A stretch of 64,000 nt of DNA, from assembly GCA_947446575.1 (NCBI GenBank), contig CANFHC010000016.1, positions 1 to 64,000 of the forward strand, in the 5' to 3' direction. The number at the start of each line of letters is the position of its first letter. The first letter of the stretch is position 1. Below are positions 6,501 through 11,076 of the stretch, one piece after another. Source of the DNA: Bacteriovoracaceae bacterium. Lineage in GTDB: Bacteria > Bdellovibrionota > Bacteriovoracia > Bacteriovoracales > Bacteriovoracaceae. The position numbers and the translations under genes are program-made. The notes beneath the pieces were generated by a model. That model saw only the letters and a list, made by a program, of their open reading frames with translations, ran no database searches and was not told the origin of the DNA.

Positions 6501-7148
6501 ATGGCCATTAACAAAATTTTCGAGAAACTTATGAAAAAACATACTGGTGAATCAATTAGAATTTTTAAAAATCCGATTCTTGAATCATTTACCCACGTTC
6601 ACCCCATCGTTCCCTTATTAGTTTGGACCCCAGTGATTCTCTTTTTACTCTATAGAGGTGCCACTGTAAAAAATGTATCGAGTTTTGAATTTTTTTATCT
6701 TTTTGTATTTGGAATGCTACTTTGGACTTTCACAGAATATATTTTGCATAGATATGTTTTTCATTGGGACGCTAAAAGCGCTGCTGGAAAATATTTTGTT
6801 TTTCTATTTCATGGACTCCACCACGATGATCCTCAAGATCCTACACGACTAGTGATGCCGCCGGTTCCCGCCATTATTATTGTTTCACTATTATGGTCGC
6901 TCTTTAGTGTGATTTTTCCCGCGCAATTTATAGATGTGATCATGGCCTATTTTTTAATCGGCTATCTAAGTTATGATTATATTCACTATGCCACTCACCA
7001 TTTTGCAATGACTTCTAAAGTTGGTCGCTACCTTCGCAAATATCACTTGCAACATCACTATGCTGGTGAAAAAAGTAAGTATGGTGTGAGTTCACCACTA
7101 TGGGATTATGTTTTTAAGACAACTACAGGTCCAAAAGAAATTCATTAA
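6501..7148 (+). CDS. Fatty acid hydroxylase-superfamily membrane enzyme (fatty-acid 2-hydroxylase-like)
   Basis: A 215-residue integral membrane di-iron enzyme with the histidine clusters of the family: HRYVFHWD, FHGLHHDDPQDPTRLVMPP, HYATHHF and LQHHYAGEKSKYGVSSPLWDYVF. The HGxHHxxPxDxxRLVMPP element resembles fatty-acid/sphingolipid 2-hydroxylases (FA2H/Scs7 type) more than sterol desaturases. Four hydrophobic segments flank the motifs. The ATG at 6501 lacks a ribosome site; the ATG at 6531 (MKKHTGE) has GAG upstream and fits the putative promoter better. A ceramide gene set lies 500 bases away, so 2-hydroxylation of ceramide acyl chains is an attractive but unproven role. Confidence 0.85.
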   Translation: MAINKIFEKLMKKHTGESIRIFKNPILESFTHVHPIVPLLVWTPVILFLLYRGATVKNVSSFEFFYLFVFGMLLWTFTEYILHRYVFHWDAKSAAGKYFVFLFHGLHHDDPQDPTRLVMPPVPAIIIVSLLWSLFSVIFPAQFIDVIMAYFLIGYLSYDYIHYATHHFAMTSKVGRYLRKYHLQHHYAGEKSKYGVSSPLWDYVFKTTTGPKEIH

Positions 7149-7639: not shown

Positions 7640-8629
7640 TTAAAGCCAACGGCGTTTTTTATAGTCAGCAAGCGTGACGGCGACTGTTTTATTTAAGTCA
7701 TAGTGGTATTCTTGAGTGAGAATTTTTCTTGAAAGACTAGCATCACACGTCCACGCTAGTGCCTTTAGCTCATAGATTTTATCAGGCGTGAGTCGAATAT
7801 TATGATTTTTTATTTTATAAAAAATATTCAAAATGAAACTTAAAAATTTCACGATAAAAAAGGGTATGGGCAAATAGATAAGAAAATGAATCCCCATTTG
7901 CTTTTTTATTTCATCAATCAACTCTTTAAAGGTAATAATTCGCTCAAATGAGCTGTAAAACATTTGAGAGTGATTAGTTTCTATGAGCTTTGTAATGGTC
8001 TCAATTAAATCAAACACGCAGACAAAGCTGTATTCTTTTATTTTAGAATTAATCCCAGGTAAAATAATAACTCTGCCTTTTACCATCTTAAATATATCTA
8101 AGACGGCCACGTCCCCAGGGCCTATAATCATAGGCGGACGAACGATTGAGCAAATCCAACTTGAGGGAGCAAGTGTCTTCATGATGTCTTCAGCACCTTT
8201 TTTTGATCTTCCATAAAGACTTACAGGAAAATCAATTTGCGATTCGTCTTTTATCTCACCAAGGTTTGCAGGGCCCGCAGCAGCGAGAGAAGAGATCAAT
8301 AGAAATTTAAAATTTATGGGGTAGAGCCATTTAAGCGCATTGATAAGATTTTTTGTTCCATCAACATTGACTTGAGTAAACTCATCATGCAGGTAGGTAT
8401 GAACTAGGCCCGCACTATGAACGCATGTTTTTAAGTCAGTTGGCAGACTTTTGGTCCAAGACAGCTCTGGAGAATTTAAATCTCCTTGCAAAAGAATTAA
8501 ATTCATATGAGTTAGTAACATCTTAGAAGGTTTGCGCACTAAAGCATAAACAGTATGCCCCTCATTCAAAAGTTTTTGAGTGAGGTGAGTTCCGACAAAT
8601 CCATTAGCGCCTGTAACTAAAATTTTCAT
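7640..8629 (-). CDS. NAD-dependent epimerase/dehydratase, candidate ceramide reductase (CerR-like)
   Basis: A 329-residue extended-SDR protein: TGANGFVG Rossmann motif (residues 6-13), the NVDGTKN segment, catalytic SS (113-114) and YGRSK (Tyr139, Lys143), and PPMIIGPGD. In Caulobacter an epimerase/dehydratase-family protein (CerR) reduces the 3-keto group of 3-ketoceramide. Here the gene follows an N-acyltransferase gene by 5 bases and a serine palmitoyltransferase-type gene, the same partner set, so I assign that role by context. A hydrophobic helix near residues 255-275 may tether it to the membrane. A generic sugar epimerase remains possible. Confidence 0.75.
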   Translation of the reverse strand: MKILVTGANGFVGTHLTQKLLNEGHTVYALVRKPSKMLLTHMNLILLQGDLNSPELSWTKSLPTDLKTCVHSAGLVHTYLHDEFTQVNVDGTKNLINALKWLYPINFKFLLISSLAAAGPANLGEIKDESQIDFPVSLYGRSKKGAEDIMKTLAPSSWICSIVRPPMIIGPGDVAVLDIFKMVKGRVIILPGINSKIKEYSFVCVFDLIETITKLIETNHSQMFYSSFERIITFKELIDEIKKQMGIHFLIYLPIPFFIVKFLSFILNIFYKIKNHNIRLTPDKIYELKALAWTCDASLSRKILTQEYHYDLNKTVAVTLADYKKRRWL

Positions 8630-8634
8630 ACGAG

Positions 8635-9765
8635 TTAAATTGCTTTCTCATAAATTCTATAACGTTTATATGCTTCTCCACCCATGCGGATAAGTGGCTT
8701 ATTCATTTCTAGATTGTTTTCAAGAATCCAGCTCATTTCAATATTTTTATTGAGTGGATTTTTTTTAATCGCGATATGGTTATGCTTGTAAAGAAGAGTT
8801 TCAAGACCAATCTTTCTAAATTCTTTTTTGATTCCCATCGTAATAACACGCACGCGGTTCATGCGTTTTTTAGCAGTGAGAATTTTATAGATGGCACTAG
8901 GTGAGAGATTTCCACTTGGGATAAGTTTAAAAACTTGATTTAAATCTGGAAGAGTTAGAATAAATCCCGCTACGACTCCATCTACAAGCGCGAAGTGCAC
9001 AAGTTCTGGATCAACAATTGATTTTAAATCTTTAGCTGTGTGATAGAACTCTTCTTTTGTCATGGGAACAAATCCCCAATTAGCTTCCCAAGCAGAGTTA
9101 TAAATTTCAAACATCGTATCAAGTTCATTATTCCAGTTTTTTAGATTAAGTGTTCGATAAGTTACTTTTGATTTTTTTTCAGTTCTCTCGGCTATGTCCA
9201 TAATGATTTTGGGCATCGTAAAGTGAGCGTCAACATTATATGCCAGTAGATCCATAGTTTTTGTATAGCCCAATTGCTCAACTTGAGTTGGGTAATAGCT
9301 TGGATTGTACGTCATCATGATCTGGGGAGCATCATCAAAGCGATCCACTAAAAAACCACATTCGTAGTTGGTTCCTGGATTCATCGGCCCTTGAACACTC
9401 GTCATGCCTTCTGCTTTCAGTGAAGCCTCAGCCGTTTTTAAAAGCAGTCTTGCGACTTGATCGTTTTGAATAGATTCAAAAAAACCGAAAAAACCAATTT
9501 TAGAATTTTGAAATTTATTAAATGCATGATTGTTGATGGCCATTATTCGCCCAACAGCGACTCCATCCATTTCAGCTAGCCATGCTTTCACGGTAGCTGT
9601 TTTATAAAAAGGATGCTTTTTTTGATTAAGAAGATCTTTAACGGCCATTTTTAATGGCGGAACCCAATGCGGATCATTTTTATAAATAGACCAAGGAAGA
9701 TTAACAAAATTTTTTAGATCTTTTTTATTATCTAGATTAATTTCTCTGATGCTAGGAGCAGACAT
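8635..9765 (-). CDS. GNAT-fold N-acyltransferase, candidate bacterial ceramide synthase (bCerS-like)
   Basis: A 376-residue protein with an acyl-CoA N-acyltransferase fold: AWLAEMDGVAVGRIMAI, FFGFFES, the GPMNPGTNYECG loop (near residue 127), MMTYNPSYYPTQVEQLGY, and a second GNAT-like half ending in RVRVITMGIKKEFRKIGLE. This family is typically encoded beside serine palmitoyltransferase-type genes. In Caulobacter its member acylates 3-ketosphinganine, the ceramide-forming step. The gene starts 42 bases after the synthase gene and 5 bases before the reductase gene. Its Shine-Dalgarno GGAG is buried in a 15-bp hairpin, which may control translation. Assignment rests on family pattern plus context. 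Confidence 0.78.
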   Translation of the reverse strand: MSAPSIREINLDNKKDLKNFVNLPWSIYKNDPHWVPPLKMAVKDLLNQKKHPFYKTATVKAWLAEMDGVAVGRIMAINNHAFNKFQNSKIGFFGFFESIQNDQVARLLLKTAEASLKAEGMTSVQGPMNPGTNYECGFLVDRFDDAPQIMMTYNPSYYPTQVEQLGYTKTMDLLAYNVDAHFTMPKIIMDIAERTEKKSKVTYRTLNLKNWNNELDTMFEIYNSAWEANWGFVPMTKEEFYHTAKDLKSIVDPELVHFALVDGVVAGFILTLPDLNQVFKLIPSGNLSPSAIYKILTAKKRMNRVRVITMGIKKEFRKIGLETLLYKHNHIAIKKNPLNKNIEMSWILENNLEMNKPLIRMGGEAYKRYRIYEKAI

Positions 9766-9766
9766 T

Positions 9767-9801
9767 TTATGATCTCCAAAATTAATTTTTGGAGATCATA
9801 A
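9767..9801 (-). promoter_or_regulatory. 15-bp hairpin covering the bCerS-like ribosome binding site
   Basis: Between the synthase stop and the acyltransferase ATG lies a perfect 15-bp inverted repeat, TTATGATCTCCAAAA / TTTTGGAGATCATAA, with a 5-base loop. On the mRNA, GGAG in the 3' arm is the only good Shine-Dalgarno, eight bases before the ATG, and it pairs with CTCC in the 5' arm. No T-run follows, so it does not look like a terminator. It could limit translation unless ribosomes or a factor open it, or it could be an RNase III site. Confidence 0.7.
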
Positions 9802-9807
9802 CTTAGA

Positions 9808-11010
9808 TCAATGTATAGATGAAGGTATTTCAAATGTTTTTTTGGCTTCAGCAAAAACTTGTAATACTGTCGCAAGGTCTTCTTTATTATGAGAGGCCAT
9901 GTAACTAGTTCTGATTAATGCTTCTCCTTTTGGCACAGCTGGTGGAAGAACAGGAGTTGCAAATACTCCATGCATCTCTAAGAATTTTGTCATCTGTAGC
10001 GCTTTCATATCATCACCAATAAAAATGGGAATGATAGGAGTTTGTGAGCCGTATGTGTAAAAACCTAATTCTTTAAATCCGTTTCTCATCATTGCAACAT
10101 TTTCCCAAAGATTTTTGAGAATTGATTCATCACTAGTCACTACGTCAATACATGCTGAAACTGTCGCAACTGCCGCAGGAGGCATTGAAGCTGAGAACAT
10201 AAATGAGCGAGCAGAGTGTCTAACATAATCAATTGCATCTTTAGAACCAGAGATAACTCCTCCGATTGAAGCAAATGATTTTGAGAAAGTTCCCATGTTG
10301 AAATCGACATCTTTTGTCAGTTCAAAATGGTTCATTGTCCCGCGGCCTTGCGCCCCCATAACACCTATTCCGTGAGCGTCATCAACATACACGTAAGCAC
10401 CGTATTTTTTGGCCAAGGCCACAACTTCCGGCAATTTCATTACATCTCCAGTCATAGAGAACACACCGTCAGCTACGATGATCACGCGGTTAAAGCGTGA
10501 AACGTTACTTTCTAGTAGTTCTTCTAGCGAAGACATATCATTGTGTTTGTATTTAAAAGTTGTTCCAAGAGAAAGTCGTGAAGAGTCAATAATAGATGCG
10601 TGGTTTTCAGAATCAAAAAGCATTAAGTCTTTTGGACCGCAAAGAGCAGAAAGAGCACCTAAGTTTGCTTGCATACCAGTTGAGAAAACGATAGCTTTTT
10701 CATGGCCTAAGTAGCTAGCTAGCTTTTCATCTAATTCTTCGTGAATATTTAAATTACCATTTAAAAAACGTGATCCAGTACAACCTGTTCCGTATTTTTC
10801 GATCGCTTTGATAGCAGCTTCTTGAACTACTGGGTGGTGAGTAAGTCCCAAATAATTGTTGGAACCAATCATGATTTGTTTTTTGCCTTTAACAGTAACA
10901 GTCGATGCTGCAGTTTCTTCTATTGCTCTAAAAAAAAAGTAAAGATCATTATTGCGCAATAAATTGGCACGCTCAATGATTTTACTTTCACTAAAAGGAG
11001 TTTTAGTCAT
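9808..11010 (-). CDS. spt: Alpha-oxoamine synthase, probable serine palmitoyltransferase
   Basis: A PLP enzyme of the family that condenses an acyl-CoA with an amino acid. Visible are NNYLGLTHHP, GTGCTGSRFLNG, DGVFSMTGD, DDAHGIGVMG (PLP Asp/His) and GTFSKS with the PLP lysine (about K244). GTFSKS is the form usual in serine palmitoyltransferases. Two partner genes of bacterial ceramide synthesis follow. I place the start at 11010, giving 400 residues, close to soluble bacterial SPTs. Longer frames start at ATG 11037 or TTG 11076, but that TTG lies in a good -35 box (TTGACG, 17 bases, TAATTT). KBL/AONS-type activity is the alternative. Confidence 0.85.
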   Translation of the reverse strand: MTKTPFSESKIIERANLLRNNDLYFFFRAIEETAASTVTVKGKKQIMIGSNNYLGLTHHPVVQEAAIKAIEKYGTGCTGSRFLNGNLNIHEELDEKLASYLGHEKAIVFSTGMQANLGALSALCGPKDLMLFDSENHASIIDSSRLSLGTTFKYKHNDMSSLEELLESNVSRFNRVIIVADGVFSMTGDVMKLPEVVALAKKYGAYVYVDDAHGIGVMGAQGRGTMNHFELTKDVDFNMGTFSKSFASIGGVISGSKDAIDYVRHSARSFMFSASMPPAAVATVSACIDVVTSDESILKNLWENVAMMRNGFKELGFYTYGSQTPIIPIFIGDDMKALQMTKFLEMHGVFATPVLPPAVPKGEALIRTSYMASHNKEDLATVLQVFAEAKKTFEIPSSIH

Positions 11011-11047
11011 TTTTATATCTCTGATTGTTGTTTCCATAAGTCTTGAA

Positions 11048-11076
11048 AAATTACTCTTTAGACCCCCTTTCGTCAA
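11048..11076 (-). promoter_or_regulatory. Candidate promoter of the ceramide operon
   Basis: On the minus strand TTGACG (11076-11071) and TAATTT (11053-11048) are separated by exactly 17 bases, close to the sigma-70 consensus. Transcription would then begin near 11040, leaving a leader of about 30 bases before the ATG at 11010. This argues that the upstream in-frame TTG is not the start codon. Confidence 0.45.

Follow-up and report, generated by a model that had tools for sequence, protein, structure and literature searches.

A conserved, clade-specific stem-loop sequesters the Shine-Dalgarno sequence between the serine palmitoyltransferase-like and N-acyltransferase genes of a Bacteriovoracaceae sphingolipid operon

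Introduction

In translational coupling by RNA unfolding, a hairpin between or across co-directional genes masks the downstream ribosome-binding site (RBS) and is opened by upstream translation, as in f1 VII/IX, MS2 coat/lysis and E. coli rpmI-rplT, and Shine-Dalgarno (SD)-masking structure in coupled gene pairs is established (PMC12548453). Coupling also operates, though less efficiently, over distances that extend to about +40 nt (PMC12548453), and structure immediately 3' of the upstream stop lowers it, according to Chemla et al. as cited in the same review. In other SD-sequestering switches, such as RNA thermometers and riboswitch expression platforms, the SD likewise lies in a stem just 5' of the ATG. 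For bacterial sphingolipids, the model pathway is that of Caulobacter Spt, bCerS and CerR, in which Spt and bCerS are cytoplasmic and act before CerR (PMC11087976, PMC11324152). How bacteria balance the maker of the long-chain base and the enzyme that acylates its product has been little studied.

We analysed a window of 64,000 nucleotides (the whole stretch of DNA under study) from a Bacteriovoracaceae bacterium, in which a serine palmitoyltransferase (SPT)-like gene is followed by an acyltransferase gene with a hairpin over its RBS. As in the RNA-unfolding systems, the two genes are adjacent and co-directional, with a gap of 42 nt, and a stable structure that includes the downstream RBS is conserved by pairing; the spacing is similar to that of E. 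coli rpmI-rplT (+52 nt; PMC12548453). In f1 and MS2, however, the upstream frame enters or crosses the structure, whereas here the stop precedes the stem, in four species well beyond the reach of a ribosome, and the coupling is putative. Unlike the SD-sequestering switches, the locus gave no Rfam match and showed no sign of a ligand domain, of a second fold or of a thermometer-like stem with weak or mismatched pairing. The gene types are those of Caulobacter spt, bcerS and cerR (SPT-like, N-acyltransferase, NAD-dependent reductase-like), a likeness at the level of gene type; the three genes are adjacent and in one direction here, whereas in Caulobacter cerS (CC_1154) is separated from spt (CC_1162) (PMC11087976, PMC11324152). 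The style of control is already known, and its location is new as judged from the openly licensed papers searched.

Results and Discussion

The hairpin and its gene neighbourhood

An earlier note on this DNA had described a perfect 15-bp hairpin filling the gap between the SPT-like and acyltransferase genes and burying the only SD of the latter, and both descriptions held. The inverted repeat at 9767-9801 has fully complementary arms (100%). Of the 42 nt that separate the SPT-like stop from the acyltransferase ATG on the - strand it takes up 35, the rest being the spacer and a single A (9766) before the ATG. On the coding strand the junction reads TGA-TCTAAG-(TTATGATCTCCAAAA-ATTAA-TTTTGGAGATCATAA)-A-ATG. 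The GGAG is the sole SD of the acyltransferase gene and pairs with CTCC of the opposite arm. The coordinates are collected in Table 1.

Table 1. Coordinates of the hairpin, its parts and the neighbouring genes in the window
Feature	Position	Strand	Remarks
SPT-like PLP enzyme, upstream gene	9808..11076	-	422 aa from a TTG start, in-frame ATG further on; stop TGA 9810-9808
Spacer, SPT-like stop to stem	9802..9807	-	6 nt, from sequence
Hairpin 5' arm TTATGATCTCCAAAA (coding strand)	9787..9801	-	CTCC 9794-9791 masks the SD
Hairpin loop	9782..9786	-	5 nt; length and sequence differ among species
Hairpin 3' arm TTTTGGAGATCATAA (coding strand)	9767..9781	-	inverted-repeat arm
GGAG Shine-Dalgarno	9774..9777	-	8 nt 5' of ATG, all paired in the stem
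GNAT-type N-acyltransferase, downstream gene, ceramide-synthase candidate	8635..9765	-	376 aa; ATG 9765-9763
NAD-dependent epimerase/dehydratase family, third gene, CerR candidate	7640..8629	-	Pfam Epimerase 73.8 bits

The upstream protein was assigned to SPT because bacterial serine palmitoyltransferases score highest among its solved relatives (369.6 bits, the next class reaching 294) and its top NCBIfam model is SerpalmtaseCFB, at 485 bits below the cut-off of 640. The acyltransferase gave a weak GNAT match (Pfam Acetyltransf_1, 26.5 bits against a cut-off of 20.7), matched no NCBIfam family, and had no solved relatives in our search; its gene neighbourhood together with this match suggests that it may be a ceramide synthase, with the Caulobacter pathway as the model (PMC11087976, PMC11324152). 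The third gene starts 5 nt beyond the acyltransferase gene. A fatty-acid hydroxylase family gene (6501-7148, + strand) adjoins the three genes and fits a sphingolipid cluster.

Two transcriptional roles were considered and rejected. An intrinsic terminator, already dismissed in the earlier note, is contradicted by the lack of a T-run after the stem on either strand, and the repeat is missing from the list of the terminator scan. For an internal promoter, four sigma-70-like matches were found in the region against 4.4 expected, none of them in the gap.

Stability of the fold and rank in the genome

The minimum free energy of the hairpin, folded on the + strand (the repeat is nearly symmetric), is -27.4 against a mean of -16.6 for shuffled sequences (z = -3.75), and none of 200 shuffles equalled it. 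The background set comprised the window and 40 stretches of the same genome, 863 kb in total or roughly one quarter of the whole. It contains 36 perfect inverted repeats (arm of at least 12, loop of 3-10), among which the hairpin ranks sixth in length; many of the remaining ones resemble A-tract/T-tract terminators. The modelled cost of opening the SD at the acyltransferase start is 15.0 kcal/mol, second of 395 SD-bearing starts, for which the median is 2.0 and the 99th percentile 9.3 kcal/mol; these starts have an SD motif at a usable distance in a rough gene call, and the start choices are approximate. Other costly openings in the same genome, with uncertain start choices, were found at L128 17527 (-), L132 9336 (+) and L129 15291 (-), with 15.3, 11.4 and 9.2 kcal/mol, respectively. 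The hairpin occurs as a single copy in its own genome, not as a member of a repeat family or mobile element, and a search of Rfam returned sub-threshold chance matches with no family at gathering score.

Conservation of the pairing

The same hairpin precedes the acyltransferase gene at the SPT junction in 8 of 14 genus genomes: the window genome (G000), G006, G009, G011, G013, G014, G015 and G016. The core arms (11 + 11 positions) are 93.5% identical across the eight, compared with 36% identity at the fourfold sites and 51.5% at the third positions of the acyltransferase gene in the same genomes, where none of 75 fourfold columns is invariant. The hairpin region of G009 is identical to that of G013, leaving seven distinct sequences, in which 93.5% of the cells pair. 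Two column pairs show clean compensatory changes, namely 8-36 (AU in four sequences, UA in three) and 10-34 (AU in six, GC in one, from G006); one outer pair is also altered on both sides but is thinly covered. When the partner columns were slid by 1-3 positions, pairing fell to 35-57%. The expectation of the earlier note that the pairing would be kept in relatives was therefore borne out, with compensatory changes. Seven core pairs are invariant and by themselves say nothing about pairing. Swapping arms between species was weakly worse than keeping the own arms (96 of 5040 permutations were as good); this test is weak because the arms are nearly invariant, and the column-wise count is more telling.

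Pairing alone does not explain all of the conservation. None of the eight hairpin genomes departs from TCTCCAAAA in the 5' arm, even where the opposing T's differ, and the AAAA of this strand is fixed although its UUUU partner has changed in places. This pattern suggests that a sequence constraint on the 5' strand may act in addition to the pairing.

The conserved half-sites TCTCCAA/TTGGAGA also form a DNA palindrome, such as a dimeric transcription factor could bind as an operator. We regard this as very unlikely, given that the half-sites are separated by 7, 8 or 9 nt depending on the species, as expected of a hairpin loop rather than of a rigid dimer site. In addition, the palindrome lies inside the operon, 6 nt past a stop and with no promoter above chance, occurs once in its own genome, and has one core pair that changed as a compensated pair.

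Distribution among relatives

The acyltransferase was detected in 91 of 129 family genomes. In the acyltransferase tree, which left out G010 and G012, the eight hairpin genomes and the solo paralogue of the window genome fall on one side of a branch with 99/98 support, and four genus members without the hairpin fall on the other. This grouping of the hairpin genomes fits a single gain. Thirty SPT-acyltransferase junctions lack the hairpin (6 in the genus and 24 in the rest of the family); their gaps are 0-58 nt with a median of 15, as termination-reinitiation coupling expects (PMC12548453), and their median fold is -1.45 kcal/mol, the strongest being -10.5. The hairpin clade differs from that arrangement by its longer gap (42-59 nt in the eight junctions), its clear SD and the intervening stem, with folds of -16.4 to -22.7. 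Taken together, these data indicate a real and conserved stem-loop that sequesters the SD, is specific to one clade and belongs to a sphingolipid operon.

In the hairpin clade the gap exceeds that of the sister species by roughly the length of one hairpin (42-59 against 9-27 nt), as would also follow from a recent neutral insertion or a functionless repeat relic. Such an origin is disfavoured by the conservation, to the point of being hardly credible: the element is single-copy and has been retained across a clade with saturated fourfold sites while acquiring compensatory changes.

The position of the stem bears on another alternative. Hairpins that act between cistrons in mRNA stability or processing are known, and a stable stem without mismatches, placed within an operon between two of its genes, could block 3'-5' decay of the spt segment or mark a cut, with the SD masking a by-product of the short gap. 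We consider this improbable. Among the hairpin genomes GGAG always lies 8-10 nt from the ATG but at varying distances from the SPT stop. With gaps as long as 57-59 nt the stem keeps its cover of the SD and its register with the ATG, while its position with respect to the SPT stop shifts. Moreover, a stem of 11-15 bp is short for RNase III.

Seven of the eight hairpin genomes contain no further match to the stem pattern, and G014 has one more, on contig 410 (L105, 7782-7805). There the ATG of a reading frame whose beginning resembles a signal peptide is immediately preceded by a GGTCTCC...GGAGATC inverted repeat with GGAG in its 3' arm. This single extra match across the 14 genomes is not above the yield of the reversed control pattern.

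Proposed function and opening of the stem

We propose, with a probability of about 0.6, that the hairpin is a conserved intercistronic SD-sequestering attenuator of acyltransferase translation, eased probably by partial coupling. In the spt-acyltransferase mRNA the 35-nt repeat would fold into a stable stem-loop with GGAG paired to CUCC, and independent initiation at the acyltransferase would be strongly attenuated by this pairing. The hairpin thus probably keeps acyltransferase translation low in the cell unless it is opened. The likeliest relief would be partial coupling to translation of SPT, by post-termination scanning or, where the stop is close, by melting of the stem, and fewer acyltransferase than SPT molecules would then be made; a dedicated unfolding factor could be an alternative. 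The passage of ribosomes past the stem is the least certain part of this explanation, and the loss of coupling caused by structure just 3' of an upstream stop (Chemla et al., as cited in PMC12548453) speaks against it.

The earlier note had suggested that the ribosome terminating at the SPT stop opens the stem, a claim that stood only in part. The stop lies 10, 10, 10 and 13 nt from the core stem in four genomes and 26 nt in the other four, so a terminating ribosome could reach the stem in the former and not in the latter. The opening cost was modelled with a ribosome occupying the nucleotides immediately 3' of the SPT stop. With 9 nt covered the cost was barely altered; with 12 nt covered it dropped to 9-10 kcal/mol in the three closest genomes (G000, G011 and G016) and was still 14.3 in G006 and 13.7-15.3 in G013-G015, which have the 26-nt distance (G013 standing for G009). 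These distances and modelled costs indicate that a terminating ribosome would at best be part of the opening mechanism, and not throughout the clade. Other possible routes past the stem are scanning with reinitiation, leaky independent initiation or the action of a factor, and acyltransferase output could possibly be tied to SPT output through scanning or a factor.

The stem lying out of reach in four genomes would also imply that something else must open it, for instance an RNA-binding protein or small RNA that reads the 5' arm and the A-rich side of the loop (GRUCUCCAAAA) and either stabilises the hairpin or opens it; acyltransferase output would then be regulated beyond mere attenuation. 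Such a trans-acting switch is possible, if on balance unlikely. It would agree with the invariance of the 5' arm described above, which holds even in those three of the seven distinct sequences whose opposing TTTT has lost pairs, and beside a gene whose fourfold sites are saturated, but there is no candidate factor and no Rfam family, and an element that is single-copy in its own genome leaves no same-element regulon there. More specifically, a sphingolipid regulator of Bacteriovorax-type bacteria might bind the invariant GRUCUCCAAAA in a sequence-specific manner and switch ceramide-synthase translation, a doubtful proposal at present; if true, N-acylation would be controlled apart from long-chain-base production within one operon.

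Returning to the attenuator eased by partial coupling, a conserved stem over the acyltransferase RBS means that a few base changes could test whether the balance between the two enzymes is set by translation. The clade would also be a natural case for separating RNA-unfolding from scanning models of coupling, whose predictions differ here, the same stem lying 10 nt past the stop in some related species and 26 nt past it in others.

The solo paralogue and a repeat at a desaturase gene

The window genome carries a second acyltransferase copy that is 72% identical (G000:C35:7983-9092, L087). It lies on contig 35, where assembly contamination is possible, follows a P-type ATPase-like gene and has no SPT neighbour. 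This solo paralogue has a plain GGAG 5 nt before its ATG, a weak fold (-6.7 kcal/mol) and no comparable hairpin. In the window genome, SD masking goes only with the SPT-linked copy of the acyltransferase.

A second strong SD-masking inverted repeat was observed at a fatty-acid desaturase gene on contig 33 of the same genome (L137, about 7982-8055, - strand). All 13 genus genomes that carry the gene (L146-L158) share an 18-bp conserved box near TGTGACANTTGTTTTACA and, about 21 nt further on, a -10-like TANNNT that falls within the repeat's loop. Exact copies of the box occur in nine genus genomes and in one other of 124 family genomes. The arms of this repeat vary among species and are mostly still complementary, with poor pairing in G005, and the duplex formed by a species' own arms (-17.6 kcal/mol) is stronger than that formed by swapped arms (-13.0 kcal/mol), none of 20000 permutations being as good. 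One reading is that a promoter in the loop yields transcripts with an open SD and that read-through from upstream carries the closed hairpin.
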